Origin: a virus | DNA: 32,040 bases | Strand: one strand, 5' to 3' | Virus record (IMG/VR): IMGVR_UViG_3300027833_000148 | Location: 1-32,040 of that record | Shown: positions 23,944 to 31,919 of the stretch, piece by piece | Numbering within the stretch: the first letter of the stretch is position 1 | Layout of the letters: each line of letters begins with the position of its first letter | Notes under the pieces: model-generated | What the model was told of the DNA's origin: nothing | What the model saw: the letters and a program-made list of their open reading frames with translations, nothing else | Databases searched by the model: none | Position numbers and translations under genes: made by a program

Positions 23944-24117
23944 CTATTCTTCTTTTGTGCTAACTATCTTATCCCACTTACCGATTGGACATGATGCCCA
24001 ATTTAGTCTAGTTTTAGCTGGCATCCAACAGCCACACTTTCTGCACTGACTGAGGAGTTTGTTTAGATGCTCACACTCATTGCATATTTTTGCTCTTTCT
24101 AAATGCTCTGGTTTCAT
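23944..24117 (-). CDS. 57-aa Cys-rich zinc-knuckle-like protein
   Basis: A short gene with ATG at 24115-24117 overlapping the upstream stop (ATGA), so translation is coupled. It has six cysteines: C12xxC15, C25xxC28xC30 and C43, in 'ICNECEHL', 'QCRKCGCWMP' and 'ASCPIGKW'. The pattern C-x2-C ... C-x2-C-x-C-x-M ... C-P-x-G-K-W is one I recall from tiny proteins scattered in cyanophage genomes. The arrangement suggests one or two zinc sites. Function is unknown; regulatory or assembly roles are guesses. Confidence 0.75.
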   Translation of the reverse strand: MKPEHLERAKICNECEHLNKLLSQCRKCGCWMPAKTRLNWASCPIGKWDKIVSTKEE

Positions 24118-25130
24118 TTTTTCTCCCCTTTTTTGTTGCCTCCAATATTTCCTCGTCCAGTAGATAGCGGGCGATAGAGTTCTCTCATTTCCAATGCTTT
24201 GTCAAAATAAAGTTTCAATCTTTCTTCATAATCTGGCATGAACTCAAACACTACACCTGACCAAGGACATGCCAAGATGTTAGCAATTGCTTTCTTTGCT
24301 GCTTCTTTCCCTTCTCTCTTCTGTATATATGTTATAATACGATGAAAAGGTTGATATACACCTGCACCAGATGCGCTCCAGAGTGACAGATCATACACCG
24401 TTTTGCCTAGTGCAGCTCCAGTTATAATCATCTCAGATGCAGTTGTACTGTAAACTGTTTCACATTGATCAAGCAGCTTGGCCCCTGAAATATTTTTAGG
24501 CAATACTTTTTGCCAACCACACTTGCTGCTAACCATTTTTAGTGCGTCATTGTGAGTTAGAGGGTGGGGTTTTACTCTGACATCATCTTCTTCTAATAAA
24601 AGTTTATCTAACGCAGAAGTGTCAATTAAGTCTAATAAGTTATGACCAGGAAGAAAAACAGCATGTTTTATATCATTATACTTGTCATCTAAGCTTTCTA
24701 GCTCGTATTTGTCAGCGAAAGAGGATACGAACTTTTCAAATAGCGCTTCACCTTCTTTTCCGGAATCTACTTTTGATGCAAAGTCAATTAAGCGACAGTT
24801 TACTTCTCTTGACTGTGTGGTGACCCATACACCACCGCCTGCAAATTCAGTATAAGTAAACTCACTAAAATTAGCACCTTGTATTGAACCAACATCATAT
24901 GTTATTGGCCAAGGCGAAAGAGAGCGAACTGATTCCTCAATTTCTACTGCCCACTTGTTTCTACTGGACCTAGAAGCAAATGGGCCTATTTTGTTTCTCT
25001 GAGTAAACTTATCTGACATTTTGTTTTCTGCCAGTCTAGGTTTTGCTTCTTCGTCTTTCTTCGGAGTTAAGTCTGTTTCTTCTAACTCAGTCGGCATATT
25101 GTGAATGCCGTTGTACAATTCAAGATCCAT
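24114..25130 (-). CDS. unknown protein, possible glycosyltransferase-like (GT-B) fold
   Basis: 338 aa. The ATG follows a GAG-type site and a late promoter 27 nt upstream. Residues 1-45 are charged and probably disordered. Residues ~156-250 read HAVFLPGHNLL, 'DDVRVKPHPLTH' (187-192), 'LLDQCETVYSTTASEMIITGAALGKTVYDLS'. The order HP-motif, then 'T-T-x-S-E' and a hydrophobic helix with GK, is like the donor-binding half of capsule-synthesis or KDO-transferase GT-B enzymes. The C-terminal 100 residues (PWSGVVFEF, YRPLSTGRGN) are not recognised. If real, it could glycosylate a virion protein. A structural role is equally possible given its place in the tail operon. Confidence 0.5.
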   Translation of the reverse strand: MDLELYNGIHNMPTELEETDLTPKKDEEAKPRLAENKMSDKFTQRNKIGPFASRSSRNKWAVEIEESVRSLSPWPITYDVGSIQGANFSEFTYTEFAGGGVWVTTQSREVNCRLIDFASKVDSGKEGEALFEKFVSSFADKYELESLDDKYNDIKHAVFLPGHNLLDLIDTSALDKLLLEEDDVRVKPHPLTHNDALKMVSSKCGWQKVLPKNISGAKLLDQCETVYSTTASEMIITGAALGKTVYDLSLWSASGAGVYQPFHRIITYIQKREGKEAAKKAIANILACPWSGVVFEFMPDYEERLKLYFDKALEMRELYRPLSTGRGNIGGNKKGEKK

Positions 25131-25684: not shown

Positions 25685-27055
25685 TTAATTAGTTGTCCAA
25701 CCAGTGGTTCTACTAGTTGTAACATTGGTATTTTGAGATTCTTGCGTACTCCAAGATGTAGTGGTATTATTATTCCATCCTGTGCTTGTATTTCTAGAGT
25801 CAGACTCTTCACCATCCCATGAAGTAGAAGTGGTGTCATTAGTAGACCATTGAGTCGGAACAGTTCCTGACCATGCAGTAGATGTATTCCTAGACTCCGC
25901 AACATCTTTTACAGTATTTCTAACATTACTGGGATTAGCCCAATAAGTAACGTAATATTGAGTAACATTAGTATTACGATTTGCGCTGGCACTAGTAATG
26001 TTATCCCAATATGTAGTCCAAGATGTTAAAGTTGTGCTACTAGTATTTGTATTAACTTCATAATCAGTAGGTTTAGGACCAGAGGCTTGCCAAGTTCGGG
26101 TTGAGTTTCTCCACGTATTAATTTGGTTTGTGCCAATCAACCGATTGGAACAGGAACTTGTTGTTGTATTGGTATTTGTATTTGTATAACTTGTGTTACA
26201 AGTCTGCCATGACGAGGGATAAGTTGTGTTGCAGCTAACATTACAAGTATAACAGTCCCGTATTTTGTAAGAAGCAGTGTACATTACGCAAGATCCAAGA
26301 CCTCTATCGTCTTCTGCACAGACGCCACCTGATGGTTGTATAAATCCCATCACAGAATAAGACTGATATTCAGCGACTGGGGCGCCACAGGAAATTAAAG
26401 TACAAGCTGGTGTGTATTGGGCAATTACCTGTTCTGCGGTATTATAGGTGTAACACCCGGTTTCAGTGCCAGCAACATCACGGGTTACTGTAGCACTCAG
26501 ACTAGTGCAAGTGGTATTTGGTACCTGAACACTTTTCACTATAGGAACATTGCTACACTCTGCCTGATACACCGGCTCATAATAAAAATAAGAAACTGAG
26601 TTAGTGCTGTTCGTGGTCCATTGAGTTGTGGTTTGTCGGGAAGAATTTCGGACGAAGCTCGGCCAAGTTGTAAGCGTTGAGCTGTTTGTATTTCTATCGT
26701 CAGAAGATACTACCCAATAAGAAACCCAGTAAGTAGCTTGTGTATAAGTTGTATGTGTGTTTCGTTGATCAAACCAGCTTGTACTAGTTGTAACAGTAGA
26801 AGTCCAGTTGGTAGAAGTATTTCTAGTTGCAGTTCCTGCAGTAGTACTGTTTGTGTTCCATGCTGTTGTGGTATTCCGGCTTGATAATCCTTCTGGATTA
26901 AAAGACCAAACAGTACTAGTTATTCTTGTTGTAGCAACGTCAGTATTAGAAGTAGTGTTTGTATTCCAAAAAGTAGACCACTCAGTAGAAAAACTGGTAG
27001 TTACCTCAGTGTTTTTAGACCCACCCTGAACAAATAATTTTCTAGTCCAACTCAT
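25685..27055 (-). CDS. RNT/W repeat tail fibre-like protein with Cys-rich centre
   Basis: 456 aa, extremely rich in Asn, Thr, Ser and Trp. Residues ~14-150 and ~315-456 consist of irregular repeats of the form RNT(S/T)TxW ... TSTSW (for example at 60-66, 78-84, 98-104, 389-395 and 421-427). This suggests a beta-solenoid or trimeric shaft built of short strands. Residues 165-302 interrupt the repeats with a different domain holding 12 cysteines (167-302). There is no signal peptide. Marine phage fibres with Ser/Thr/Trp repeats exist, so a fibre role is likely. It lies between a small fibre-like gene and a possible fibre chaperone gene. Confidence 0.7.
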   Translation of the reverse strand: MSWTRKLFVQGGSKNTEVTTSFSTEWSTFWNTNTTSNTDVATTRITSTVWSFNPEGLSSRNTTTAWNTNSTTAGTATRNTSTNWTSTVTTSTSWFDQRNTHTTYTQATYWVSYWVVSSDDRNTNSSTLTTWPSFVRNSSRQTTTQWTTNSTNSVSYFYYEPVYQAECSNVPIVKSVQVPNTTCTSLSATVTRDVAGTETGCYTYNTAEQVIAQYTPACTLISCGAPVAEYQSYSVMGFIQPSGGVCAEDDRGLGSCVMYTASYKIRDCYTCNVSCNTTYPSSWQTCNTSYTNTNTNTTTSSCSNRLIGTNQINTWRNSTRTWQASGPKPTDYEVNTNTSSTTLTSWTTYWDNITSASANRNTNVTQYYVTYWANPSNVRNTVKDVAESRNTSTAWSGTVPTQWSTNDTTSTSWDGEESDSRNTSTGWNNNTTTSWSTQESQNTNVTTSRTTGWTTN

Positions 27056-27626: not shown

Positions 27627-28073
27627 ATGACTTATTCTAAACAGGTTTACTCGGGAAAATTCATCCCAAGAAATCCAAAAAAATACAAAGGAAACGTGAC
27701 CGGTATAATATATCGTTCCAGTTACGAATTGAAGTTTATGAATTGGTGCGACATCAGTGACTCTGTAATAGAGTGGGGGTCTGAAGAAATAGTAATACCG
27801 TATATTTCACCACTAGACAACAGAGTACATAGATATTTTGTTGACTTTTATGTGAAAGTAAGTAGCAAAGATAAAATAAGATATTGCTTAGTAGAAGTAA
27901 AGCCTTTTAGATTCACACAAGAACCGAAAATACCTAAAAGAAAAACAAAAAGATTTCTAAATGAAGTTAAACAATGGGGTGTAAATCTATCAAAATGGGA
28001 AGCAGCAAAAGAATTTTGTCTTGATAGAAATTGGGAGTTTATGATTATTACTGAGAAAGAACTCGGAATATAG
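27627..28073 (+). CDS. 4: head completion protein gp4
   Basis: 148 aa (T4 gp4 is 150 aa) and alignable by eye throughout: YSGKFIPRNPKKYKGN, IIYRSSYELKFMNWCD, VIEWGSEEIVIPY, RYFVDFYVK, LVEVKP, KRFLNEVKQWGVNLSKWEAAKEF. It joins the DNA-filled head to the tail. E34, D73 and E90-V-K92 fit the spacing of a PD-(D/E)xK nuclease-like core, so a terminus-trimming nuclease activity is possible. First gene of the plus-strand unit. Confidence 0.92.
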   Translation: MTYSKQVYSGKFIPRNPKKYKGNVTGIIYRSSYELKFMNWCDISDSVIEWGSEEIVIPYISPLDNRVHRYFVDFYVKVSSKDKIRYCLVEVKPFRFTQEPKIPKRKTKRFLNEVKQWGVNLSKWEAAKEFCLDRNWEFMIITEKELGI

Positions 28074-28087: not shown

Positions 28088-28663
28088 ATGGCTAATCCTT
28101 TTACAGATATACAAACAAGCACCGGCGGCAATGATCGTAGTTTTAGATGGTATCAAGATGCTGTCCGTAAAGTTGCGGGTAACATAAGAAGTTTTGGTGA
28201 CGCATCTAGAACAGATATAGGAGAGTTTACCTCACAGCTAGAGCCGGGTAATATGTACATGTACATGTATGATCCTAAGAATAAAGACTCTCTTCCTTAT
28301 TGGGATCAGTTCCCCCTATGCTTACCATTTGATGATATGGCAGGTGGATTCGTTGGATTGAACTTGCATTATATACCACCAATGCTTAGAGCTAAGTTAT
28401 TGGGAGAATTGTTAAATTACACAGACAAAGAACTAACAGATAAAAGTAAGATAGAAGTTAAATGGAGTATGTTAAAGTCGTTCAGTAAGTTTCCTGGCGT
28501 CCAACCTACAGTGAAGAAATACTTGTATAGTCAAGTAAATAGTAGATTTCTAAAAGTAGATCCTGAACATTGGAAAGCATCTATATTTTTACCAACACAA
28601 AACTTCCAAGGTGCATCAGTACAGAAAGTGTACAAAGACAGCAGAGACATAATCAATGGCTAA
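28088..28663 (+). CDS. probable DNA end protector gp2-like
   Basis: 191 aa. The core motif 'MYMYMYDPKNKDSLPYWDQFPLCLPFDD ... GFVGLNLHYIPPMLRAKLLGELL' followed by 'VKKYLYSQVNSRFLKVDPEHWKASIFLPTQNF' is a conserved family in T4-like phages that I associate with gp2-type DNA end protector annotations. In T4, gp2 is encoded next to gp4 and protects packaged DNA ends from RecBCD. The position beside gp4 supports this, but T4 gp2 is longer (274 aa), so the name is tentative. It overlaps the next gene by 8 nt. The start codon lies on the predicted transcription start. Confidence 0.5.
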   Translation: MANPFTDIQTSTGGNDRSFRWYQDAVRKVAGNIRSFGDASRTDIGEFTSQLEPGNMYMYMYDPKNKDSLPYWDQFPLCLPFDDMAGGFVGLNLHYIPPMLRAKLLGELLNYTDKELTDKSKIEVKWSMLKSFSKFPGVQPTVKKYLYSQVNSRFLKVDPEHWKASIFLPTQNFQGASVQKVYKDSRDIING

Positions 28664-29276
28664 ATCGCTCACTAAACTAGAAAACTTCTTAACTCAAATA
28701 CGAACTCAGCATACTCCTAGGTCTGACCGCTTTGAAGTTGAATTTAACTTGCCGCCCGGACTGTCAGAATCTCAAGAATTTATGCAGACACTGAGTGTTT
28801 ATTGCGAAGAGGCTCAAATACCAGGATTAGCTGCTACTAATCTACCTGTTAAAATAGGAGCTTGGACTGAATATAGAACTCAGAATGTTGAATTTTTAAC
28901 AACAGAACTTTCCTTCACGTTTTTATGTGATGAGTTTTGGTCTGGAAGAGATTTTTTTGAAAACTGGATAAACCTTGCTGCTGATGTCAATTCTAAAGAA
29001 GTTGAATATTACGATAATTATGTAGCAGATATAACAGTAAAATCATTAAGCACCAAAGATGATGTATTAGCGGTTTGGAAAATTATTGACGCAACGCCGA
29101 AACTAATCAATCTGACTCCTGTCTCTTGGAGTAATCAAGGATTTATCAGAATGTCGGTGTCTTTTGCTGCTAAGAAGTGGGAAAGAATTTATGACAAAGT
29201 AGGGACTCAGTATACTGACGAAGAAAAAGCTAAGTCTTTGTTTGATGTTCTATTAGGACCAAAAAAAGCAGGATAA
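28656..29276 (+). CDS. tail tube-fold protein (gp54/gp19-like)
   Basis: 206 aa. The pattern 'RSDRFEVEFNLPPG ... YCEEAQIPGLAATNLPVKIGAWTEYRT ... LSFTFLCDEFWSGRDFFENWINLAAD ... ADITVKSL ... WKIIDATPKLINLTPVSWSNQGFIRMSVSFAAKKWE' is the tail-tube fold shared by T4 gp19, gp48 and gp54. gp48 is present at 22695-23852, and this gene sits before gp26-gp51-tape measure. That favours a tube initiator (gp54 role) over the major tube protein, which would normally follow gp18 elsewhere. The start overlaps the previous gene. Confidence 0.7.
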   Translation: MAKSLTKLENFLTQIRTQHTPRSDRFEVEFNLPPGLSESQEFMQTLSVYCEEAQIPGLAATNLPVKIGAWTEYRTQNVEFLTTELSFTFLCDEFWSGRDFFENWINLAADVNSKEVEYYDNYVADITVKSLSTKDDVLAVWKIIDATPKLINLTPVSWSNQGFIRMSVSFAAKKWERIYDKVGTQYTDEEKAKSLFDVLLGPKKAG

Positions 29277-29311: not shown

Positions 29312-30004
29312 ATGGCATTACCAGTAATAGATACACCTACATTTGAGTTAGAAATCCCAGGAATGAAAGGCAAATTCAAATTTAGACCGTTCTTAGTCAA
29401 GGAAAATAAAATATTAACACTTGCCGCAGCATCTGAAAACTCGAAAGAAATGTATCTAGCGTGTTGTCAAGTAGTAGAGAATTGTGCGTTCGGAAAGATA
29501 ACAGGCACAGATTTAGCTATGTATCAGTTACAGTGGATATTTTTAAAGCTAAGATCAAAGTCTATTGGTGATCTACAGTCCTTTACACTAAAATGTGGAG
29601 AGTGTAACGACATGTTAAATTATGAAATGGACATCAATGATTTTGAGCTGGTTGGAAATACTGAAACAGCAGAGAAAAAAATAGAACTTAGTGACGATAC
29701 AGGAATTATGTTGAAGTACCCGTCGGCAGAAATACAAATGTTAGAAGAAGAAATAAGTGACACAGAAATACTGTTAAATTCTATATCGTATATTTACACC
29801 AGTGAAGAGATGATAAGACCTGAGGATGAAACAGTAGAAGAAATGGTAGAATTCATTGATAATTTACCAGTACATATGCTGAATGATGCTAAAGAGTTTT
29901 TTAGCAATATACCATCGTTAGTACACAAAGTACAATACACTTGTTCGAAGTGTGAAGCGAAGAATGAAATATTAATTAATGGATATGAGCATTTTTTCGC
30001 CTAA
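29312..30004 (+). CDS. 26: baseplate hub assembly protein gp26 (T4_baseplate family)
   Basis: 230 aa from the ATG at 29312, with GGAGA 5 nt upstream; a TTG twelve bases earlier is in frame but poorer. Family features: 'FELEIPGMKGKFKFRPFLVKENKILTLA', 'QLQWIFLKLRSKSIGD', a CxxC pair at C95/C98 and another at C211/C214, probably one zinc site. T4 gp26 (208 aa) acts in hub assembly and lies next to gp51. The gene ends in GAG CAT TTT TTC GCC TAA, which holds the heptamer T TTT TTC; a -1 slip there would continue into gp51. This makes it look like a tail-assembly chaperone of the G/GT type. Confidence 0.85.
   Translation: MALPVIDTPTFELEIPGMKGKFKFRPFLVKENKILTLAAASENSKEMYLACCQVVENCAFGKITGTDLAMYQLQWIFLKLRSKSIGDLQSFTLKCGECNDMLNYEMDINDFELVGNTETAEKKIELSDDTGIMLKYPSAEIQMLEEEISDTEILLNSISYIYTSEEMIRPEDETVEEMVEFIDNLPVHMLNDAKEFFSNIPSLVHKVQYTCSKCEAKNEILINGYEHFFA
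29992..29998 (+). promoter_or_regulatory. putative -1 frameshift heptamer T TTT TTC
   Basis: In the gp26 frame this is the canonical X XXY YYZ heptamer, 6 nt before the stop end. The -1 frame is open only from 29989 onward, so any slip must happen between 29989 and 30004, exactly where this heptamer lies. Confidence 0.6.
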
Positions 30005-30180
30005 CTCTTTCTCAGGATTCGCTTGAAAATTATTACAGGACGAATTTTTTGTTAATGCAAGAGCATCATTATAGTTTGACTGAATTAGAAAATATGATGC
30101 CTTGGGAAAGAGAAGTTTATATTGGTATGCTAATAACACATCTAAAAAAGAAAGCAGATAAACAACAGAGTAATCAATAA
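29992..30180 (+). CDS. 51: gp51-like baseplate hub assembly protein, likely frameshift extension of gp26
   Basis: The -1 frame encodes 'RLTLSQDSLENYYRTNFLLMQEHHYSLTELENMMPWEREVYIGMLITHLKKKADKQQSNQ', the compact pattern 'HYSLTELENMxPWERxxYxxML' of gp51-type proteins. No ATG opens it upstream of 30055, which would cut off the conserved-looking N-terminal part. A TTG at 30049 with AGGA (30037-30040) is the best independent start (43 aa). With a -1 shift at 29992-29998 the fusion with gp26 would be 289 aa. The stop overlaps the tape-measure ATG (TAATG). Confidence 0.7.
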   Translation, partial: FFRLTLSQDSLENYYRTNFLLMQEHHYSLTELENMMPWEREVYIGMLITHLKKKADKQQSNQ

Positions 30181-31919
30181 TGCTAATAGTATCAGGCGGA
30201 ATATCAGACGAGGGATTCAGTGGCTCTAGAGTTAGGGATACGGAAGACAAAAATCGGTTTACTAAAGAAGGAGCTGAATCTCTAATTAATTCTGTACGAG
30301 AAGCTACTAAGAAAACAAAAACAAACAATGCTGGTCTGAATAAGATTAGTGCTGCAAGCTCTATCATGGCAAAAGAAATTGCTAAAAATACAGAAGCAGT
30401 ACAAAAAGTATTAGCAGATGACGAGAAATCTCAAGAACAACTTGTAAAAGTTATGGAGATGATGGCAGACGCACAGAAAAAAACTGGCGAAGCTAGTGTT
30501 TCTGCAATCGAAGACTTGATGAAAGAAATCTCTATATTAAAAGAAATTGGTGGCACAGATTTAACTAACAATTTAGGACTAGATGAAGCTCAAAAATCAT
30601 TAGCATCTGGAAACGGTAGTACGATATCAGGATCTTTATTTAGAAAATTCACAAATGTAGATGAAGGTGTAACAGGACTAGACGCAGTAAAACAAGCATT
30701 CTCTCGTGAAAAGCTATTTGGATTAAAGCCCACAGCAAAAACACTAGAGAAAAGAGCAGATGCTAACGCTAAAATGTCACTGCAAGGATCTGCCATCTCT
30801 GGCTTAGTTAAAAGTGTGCTTGGAAACAAAAAAGAACAAGTTAAGGCCGTACAAGAAAATGCAGAAGGGTCGGCAGCATTTATAACTGGTACTGATAGAG
30901 CGTCTTTAGATAGCCAACAAGTAGATTTGTTGGAACAGATATTAAAACAACTGAAAATAATGGAAGAGGGAGGAGTATCCAACACAGGCGTGATGTCTGC
31001 TGCACTTGTAGGAGCAATAGCCGCTGCTTTGCCTACAATACTAACAACAGTTGTTGCTGGTGCAGGAATACTAAAACTGATTGATATGGTCAAAGAAAAA
31101 ACCGCACCTATGTGGGAAGAGTTTAAAAACAGACCAGAAAATGCTGAAAAGACTAACGAAGAATTGGTTAAAGATCTTAGAGTAGAAAACGGTTTAGACA
31201 ACAGAGTTAGTGATCCAAACTATGACATGACTCAAGATCCTGCATATCCATTGCTTAAAGCCAAAAGAACTGGTTTATATGATAAAGACTGGGTTGGAAA
31301 TAGTGAAGTTGATTTGAACATGCTCGCTGCAAGCAATAATCCTGCTCAGTTACAAGCAATTCTAGATGATGATGACATCAGTGCTTTAGATAGAATGCGT
31401 GTAGAAACGAGAATAAACCAACTCAATACAGAAGGCGATCTTGGACCAGTAAGACCTTCTATTGAACCTTCTTCTGCACCTACTGTAACTCCTGAAATAA
31501 ATCCAATAGATGGAAGAAGATCAGAAGGAGAATCAGTGACTGAGTTAGCTTCAATTGGTTCAATGCCACTAGTAGATTCAAATGGAAATACCGTATCTGA
31601 AAAAGTACAAGCAGGAGCGTCTGCAAAATCTTCTACTACTCCGTTGATGCTGAATATCAAAGCAAAAGATGTTCTTGGTGTTGCAGCAGAGGCAAATTTT
31701 CAACATATGATGTCACCCGATCCTACCCGGACTGCCGATGCTGTTAGTAATATGTCTGATTTGATGGAAAATATTATGAGCAGCATCACCAATAATATCC
31801 AGAATATAACAAATAATAATACAAGTGGCGGCAATACCGCACCTTCAATATTAGTATCACCGAGTGGTACAAAAAATAATGAATGGAACATGATAGACTA
31901 TCATAAAAGAATACATTAA
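30180..31919 (+). CDS. tape measure protein, gp29-like by position and length
   Basis: 579 aa, close to T4 gp29 (590 aa). The ATG overlaps the gp51 stop. The N-terminal half is highly charged, helical and coiled-coil-like (residues ~30-125). One hydrophobic Ala/Val-rich segment spans ~271-303 (MSAALVGAIAAALPTILTTVVAGAGILKLIDMV). The C-terminal half is rich in Pro/Ser/Asn, ending in 'ITNNNTSGG' and 'WNMIDYHKRIH'. Position right after gp26/gp51 matches the chaperone-then-tape-measure order of long-tailed phages. No clear sequence motif links it to gp29, so the name is by context. Confidence 0.65.
   Translation: MLIVSGGISDEGFSGSRVRDTEDKNRFTKEGAESLINSVREATKKTKTNNAGLNKISAASSIMAKEIAKNTEAVQKVLADDEKSQEQLVKVMEMMADAQKKTGEASVSAIEDLMKEISILKEIGGTDLTNNLGLDEAQKSLASGNGSTISGSLFRKFTNVDEGVTGLDAVKQAFSREKLFGLKPTAKTLEKRADANAKMSLQGSAISGLVKSVLGNKKEQVKAVQENAEGSAAFITGTDRASLDSQQVDLLEQILKQLKIMEEGGVSNTGVMSAALVGAIAAALPTILTTVVAGAGILKLIDMVKEKTAPMWEEFKNRPENAEKTNEELVKDLRVENGLDNRVSDPNYDMTQDPAYPLLKAKRTGLYDKDWVGNSEVDLNMLAASNNPAQLQAILDDDDISALDRMRVETRINQLNTEGDLGPVRPSIEPSSAPTVTPEINPIDGRRSEGESVTELASIGSMPLVDSNGNTVSEKVQAGASAKSSTTPLMLNIKAKDVLGVAAEANFQHMMSPDPTRTADAVSNMSDLMENIMSSITNNIQNITNNNTSGGNTAPSILVSPSGTKNNEWNMIDYHKRIH

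Follow-up and report, generated by a model that had tools for sequence, protein, structure and literature searches.

A putative -1 frameshift joining gp26 to a start-less gp51 in T4-like phages

Frameshifted tail assembly chaperones are textbook material. The lambda type of frameshift is said to be conserved among long-tailed phages, "except T4" (PMC5009743), and the statement in the initial annotation that no such shift is described for T4 itself agrees with this. The question is raised again by a stretch of viral DNA of 32,040 nucleotides (IMG/VR record IMGVR_UViG_3300027833_000148; hereafter the window), in which a gene for gp26 ends just where a second frame that encodes a gp51-like sequence opens in -1: are these two genes, or one? 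The initial annotation had proposed that they correspond to the G/GT pair of lambda. The conserved heptamer, the arrangement of the frames, purifying selection that acts on the -1 frame on both sides of the gp26 stop and a T4 gp51 that is already fused, all established by comparing sequences, support this proposal, as does the likeness of the gp26 model to an HK97 protein, and it is very probable that gp26 and gp51 form a G/GT-type chaperone pair, one gene that is read two ways via -1 frameshifting.

The gp26 gene of the window ends GAG CAT TTT TTC GCC TAA and, as the initial annotation had read it, T TTT TTC lies in phase at 29992-29998 (Table 1). TGA at 29986-29988 does close the -1 frame, which then stays open from 29989 through 30180, and the reported lack of an ATG before the conserved region of gp51 is borne out, the earliest candidate starts being TTG 30049 and ATG 30055, which are 19 and 21 codons past the slip and within the conserved block; no start is found across the conserved first 19 residues. 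As in a G/GT pair, the second frame overlaps gp26 in -1 and offers no start codon ahead of its conserved part. T_TTT_TTC is not rare in this A+T-rich record, with 11 copies observed on both strands and 9.7 expected; of these only the gp26 copy lies in sense orientation in a long predicted gene, where it is in phase and 3 nt ahead of the stop, and the remaining ten copies are antisense to long predicted genes. The overlap and its heptamer were read correctly and are far beyond chance.

Table 1. Features of the window around the predicted shift site
Feature	Position	Strand	Remarks
gp4-like head closure protein	27627..28073	+	phrog_218 E 7.3e-61
gp2-like DNA end protector	28088..28663	+	phrog_429 E 1.3e-54
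Tail tube-like protein, upstream of gp26	28656..29276	+	phrog_45 tail tube E 4.3e-26
gp26 (TAC-N, short chaperone)	29312..30004	+	230 aa; ATG 29312; stop TAA 30002-30004
TGA shutting the -1 frame immediately upstream, leaving gp51 without an upstream start	29986..29988	+	
Slippery heptamer T_TTT_TTC	29992..29998	+	X_XXY_YYZ phase for -1; from sequence
gp51 coding region, -1 frame, predicted C-terminal part of long chaperone (TAC-NC)	29992..30180	+	FFRLTLSQDSLENYY...; stop TAA 30178-30180
Codon linking heptamer to gp26 stop	29999..30001	+	in relatives 0-frame residue variable, -1 frame Arg kept
Weak stem-loop, possible stimulator	30014..30048	+	z -1.57 over 51 nt, -0.22 over 78 nt
579-aa ORF in tape-measure position	30180..31919	+	assigned by position only; start overlaps gp51 stop by one base

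For comparison 184 gp26 ORFs were collected from IMG/VR and from named phages, among which 158 heptamer-bearing representatives at <90% identity make up a non-redundant set. An in-phase T_TTT_TTN is present at the gp26 end in 181 of the 184 ORFs (158 non-redundant), G+C-rich phages included; the three ORFs without it belong to T4 and to two Ackermannviridae-like relatives. About half of the loci were fetched via the gp51 frame, with a possible bias, and the 80 IMG/VR loci that were fetched via gp26 alone make an unbiased set: the heptamer is found in 80 of these 80, and the -1 frame is open for at least 50 codons in 77 of them, four of the 80 contigs stopping within the frame. That relatives would keep both the heptamer and the start-less gp51 was a prediction of the initial annotation, and both are kept. 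The last base of the heptamer is C in 140 of the 181, T in 30, A in 10 and G in one, and the distance from the heptamer to the stop is mostly 3 nt in the 158 representatives. In five IMG/VR loci (L127, L142, L079, L146 and L156) the heptamer stands 24 nt before the gp26 stop, rather than 0-9, with a longer overlap of the frames.

Inside gp26 genes the background of in-phase T_TTT_TTN is 30 in 34,216 codons, and only nine of 144 other Phe-Phe pairs in these genes are slippery. At the site itself the wobble base ahead of Phe-Phe is always T (log10 P -33.9 from the gene's own codon usage, with the sequences treated as independent) and the first Phe codon is always TTT (log10 P -28.3 on the gene's own codon usage, relatedness being ignored). 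Past the slip the -1 frame of the relatives is open for 54-69 codons, against a median of 4 for the +1 frame.

The codon between the heptamer and the stop is informative as it can be read in both frames. In the 0 frame its residue varies (Gly, Val, Ala, Glu and others; 2.67 bits), whereas read in -1 it gives Arg in 109 of 130 cases (1.06 bits), because its first base is G in 102 of the 104 cases where the heptamer ends in C and its second base is free. That Arg is kept in -1 and the 0-frame residue is free argues for selection on the -1 frame ahead of the gp26 stop, and we regard this codon as the strongest single argument for a frameshift. Judged from these codons, the -1 frame would be translated before the gp26 stop is reached, and re-initiation after that stop cannot account for the Arg pattern. 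Furthermore, among the close relatives of the window the changes past the slip are mostly synonymous in -1 and mostly replacing in the other frame, with 15 synonymous and 2 replacing codons in the -1 frame between the window and one of them (L107); as in a G/GT pair, coding selection on the second frame extends across the junction.

These observations bear on the possibility that gp51 is a separate short protein whose translation is coupled to that of gp26 or re-initiates at the gp26 stop or beyond it, from TTG 30049 or ATG 30055 in the window, for instance. The records of S-PM2 and P-SSM2 do annotate a gp51 start only a few codons from where gp26 stops, that of S-PM2 being an ATG just past the stop, and the first ATG of the -1 frame falls at codons 0-14 in 34 of the 158 representatives and upstream of the slip in a further 10. 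In the other 114, however, it comes no earlier than codon 15 or does not occur, and a start so far downstream would delete the conserved block FFR....S.ENYY.TNF. A separate gp51 would also leave unexplained both the -1 frame Arg before the gp26 stop and a heptamer that is fixed even where an ATG is available, and we consider it very unlikely.

Upstream of the heptamer a Shine-Dalgarno-like 4-mer ends at a distance of 6 to 12 nt in 99 of the 158 representatives, compared with 5.4% at other positions. It often lies on a Glu-Gly pair, where GAG is used in 51 of 79 cases as opposed to 26 of 102 elsewhere (Fisher p 1.8e-7). This preference for GAG is confined to the site, which suggests that the Shine-Dalgarno-like element is probably selected at the RNA level, as a stimulator like that of dnaX. 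The -1 frameshift of Escherichia coli dnaX shares with ~63% of the relatives a Shine-Dalgarno-like sequence upstream of the slip site, but it occurs in another gene and on another heptamer, and the window's own clade differs from it in that the element upstream of the heptamer is absent. A conserved upstream stimulator of the Shine-Dalgarno type is apparently new.

The same element has to be set against the idea that RNA polymerase slips on the run of T and produces mixed mRNAs, the fusion then being translated from the altered ones. Runs of seven or eight T do occur in some relatives, as this would require, but 118 of the 158 representatives have only six, a run shorter than is usual for polymerase slippage. 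Furthermore the C, A and G seen at the last base of the heptamer fit tandem tRNA re-pairing, and an upstream Shine-Dalgarno-like element would act on ribosomes and not on polymerase, all of which makes slippage during transcription extremely improbable as the source of the fusion.

Downstream of the site the evidence for a stimulator is of a different kind. The initial annotation had suggested folding the RNA that follows the heptamer, and for the window the result gives no clear support to such a stimulator: by the z scores of the candidate stem-loop (Table 1) the RNA has hardly more structure than shuffled sequence, the bases that pair shift from one close relative to the next, and a consensus fold of nine close relatives, weak at -1.6 kcal/mol, lacks the stem of the window. 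This candidate was rejected. Across all relatives the 75 nt downstream have a mean z of -1.28, compared with -0.29 in a control region, and are thus modestly stabler than shuffles, so that downstream structure may help the shift in some lineages. No Rfam match was found at the shift site.

As to what the two frames encode, a profile search matched gp26 of the window to PF12322 with E 3.6e-45 and 154.8 bits over positions 2-219 of 219, the curated cut-off being 24.5 bits, and to phrog_150, the T4 gp26 family, over its full length (E 6.8e-45). The product of the -1 frame was assigned to phrog_634 (gp51, baseplate hub assembly catalyst) with E 1.8e-26. The same product aligns with the C-terminal 50 positions of phrog_150, the gp26 profile, from which it follows that fused members are present in that family. 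In the window the -1 frame product itself has no PF12322 match, in contrast to the two-gene arrangement of T4-type phages in which gp51 has its own PF12322 domain, and the 32-kb record, possibly a fragment, contains a single copy of PF12322.

The AlphaFold model of gp26 from the window has a pLDDT of 90, and after structural realignment its best matches in the PDB are the HK97 tail assembly chaperone (2ob9, Z 7.5) and YqbN (3klu, Z 6.6), followed in third place by an unrelated protein (Z 2.9). The 2ob9 match spans only residues 1-85 of gp26 and a Z below 8 may be fortuitous, yet with the two top matches far above the rest the likeness of the model to the HK97 chaperone is hard to dismiss. For the long form a naturally fused T4-type gp51 was modelled in place of the frameshift fusion, and it gave no match to a chaperone, although chaperone chains may be missing from the set that was compared. 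Foldseek alone returned nothing significant for either model, and a PDB sequence search with gp26 and the T4-type gp51 gave no credible match.

T4 offers a comparison of another sort. Both T4 proteins have PF12322, and the C-terminus of T4 gp51 is homologous to the -1 frame of the window; unlike in the window, gp26 and gp51 of this member of the Straboviridae are two separate, divergently transcribed genes, with no heptamer. T4 gp51 consists of its own gp26-like domain (PF12322, residues 1-201) followed by the gp51 family in one ORF, and when compared by eye it is co-linear with the predicted fusion ...HFFRLTLSQDSLENYYRTNFLLMQEHHYSLTELENMMPWEREVY, whilst T4 gp26, on the opposite strand, is the PF12322 domain alone. 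In T4-type gp26 genes the matching residues are encoded by TTC TTT or other non-slippery codons, and neither T4-type gp26 nor any of the gp51 ORFs examined contains an in-phase heptamer. The heptamer is missing if the long form is encoded by a gene of its own and present if gp51 exists as a short -1 frame, except in the two Ackermannviridae-like cases; T4-type phages are a natural control in this respect. Both states occur within the Straboviridae, the heptamer being present in Vibrio phage Va3 and Aeromonas phage phiAS5.

In the Ackermannviridae-like relatives a gp51-like -1 frame follows gp26 at 3241-3400 of L020 (Salmonella phage S118; MPWHLDLL..., unannotated) and at 3097-3275 of L021 (Vibrio phage D509; MPWHLMSL...). 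Their gp26 genes end without a canonical heptamer, as GAG ATT TTC ATT TAA in S118 and TCA CTT TTC AAG TAA in D509, and D509 carries TAATG, where re-initiation is possible.

We think it rather likely that the -1 shift is general for the long gp26/gp51 chaperone in the T4 superfamily outside the T4-type phages, marine members included, most lineages having a dnaX-like internal Shine-Dalgarno sequence, and that the T4 branch dropped it via gene duplication, with the fusion hard-wired as gp51. In phiAS5, which we take to be an Aeh1-like phage, the gp51 frame is present and start-less. It was remarked in 2010 that gp51 of cyanophage and marine vibriophage is short of ~200 N-terminal residues and that Aeh1 is without gp51 (PMC3037559). 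Since the missing residues are those of gp26 and the phiAS5 frame has no start, a general shift, if true, would explain both the cyanophage gp51 that "lacks" these residues and the Aeh1 that "lacks" gp51.

The position of the pair was given in the initial annotation as just before the tape measure. The genes around it form a T4-like tail module, in which the minus strand carries those for the baseplate wedge, hub-lysozyme and tube cap and the order on the plus strand is gp4, gp2, tail tube-like protein, gp26, gp51 and the 579-residue ORF. ORFs in the same position in HTVC008M, phiM12, Va3 and Cr30 match tape-measure PHROGs, whereas the ORF at 30180-31919 of the window has no tape-measure match in profile or pairwise searches. 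A small ORF separates gp51 from the large ORF in 43 of 152 relatives and is absent in the window. Also in this region of the window are a 338-residue protein among the tail genes (24114-25130, minus strand), which matches phrog_26179 of unknown function, and a 456-residue protein (25685-27055, minus strand) that is rich in Thr, Asn, Ser and Trp, has many RNTST-like repeats and has no Pfam or PHROG match.

With no tape-measure match for the ORF downstream in the window, and with T4 gp26 and gp51 listed as hub assembly chaperones (PMC3004832), the frameshifted pair could be real and yet have baseplate hub assembly as its task in place of chaperoning the tape measure and tube. This is unlikely in view of the resemblance of the gp26 model to the HK97 chaperone and of the tape-measure-like proteins downstream in relatives. 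The T4 tape measure gp29 is itself counted among the hub proteins (PMC3004832), and therefore the two roles may be one.

For the G/GT-type pair a mechanism can be proposed by analogy with lambda. We infer both the slip and the ratio of its products: most ribosomes would halt at TAA 30002-30004 and release the short chaperone gp26 (TAC-N, like lambda gpG), and a fraction, with tRNA-Phe in both the P and the A site on T_TTT_TTC, would move back by one base and read ...HFF-RLTLSQDSLENYY..., giving a gp26-gp51 fusion (TAC-NC, like gpGT). If the two act as they do in lambda, the gp26 part would coat the tape measure protein and the gp51 part would recruit tail tube subunits, and both forms would be excluded from the virion. 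The gpG protein of lambda is smaller than the 230-aa gp26 of the window. Lambda gpG/gpGT (Levin 1993; Xu 2004, 2013, 2014) nevertheless share with the pair predicted for the window a short and a frameshift-extended form, a -1 shift near the 3' end, a slippery heptamer, a place in the tail gene cluster and probably the tape-measure position, the heptamer T_TTT_TTC differing from that of lambda. In Vandenendeviridae and Andersonviridae, which are other phage families with the motif GTTTTT, the short chaperone gene likewise has a conserved -1 shift at its 3' end, and the downstream frame is misannotated as a separate gene (PMC12846349).

The window pair would add to the known class of frameshifted tail chaperones. 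In 2022 Vladimirov, Gautam and Davidson (Virology 566:9-15) reportedly identified the chaperone genes of T4-like phages (TAC-N/TAC-NC), and the title of their paper, which argues for a mechanism other than frameshifting in T4-like phages, speaks against the present reading. Papers that cite that work state that some T4-like phages have a short and a fused gene in place of frameshifting (PMC10885494, citing Vladimirov et al. 2022) and that T-rich signals are known in T4-like short chaperone genes (PMC12846349, citing Vladimirov et al. 2022), and so a part of the general claim may already be contained in the 2022 paper. Among the papers searched, none that describes this shift in cyanophages was found.

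A general shift would bring marine T4-like phages under the rule that long-tailed phages frameshift their tail chaperones, to which a major review lists T4 as the exception, and would make the T4 branch a clear instance of gene duplication taking the place of frameshifting. It would also correct routine annotation, as many records list gp51 as a separate gene or omit it. In the public records of S-CAM1 (L197) and S-PRM1 (L198) the gp51 frame is unannotated, with a gap of 184 nt from gp26 to the next gene.
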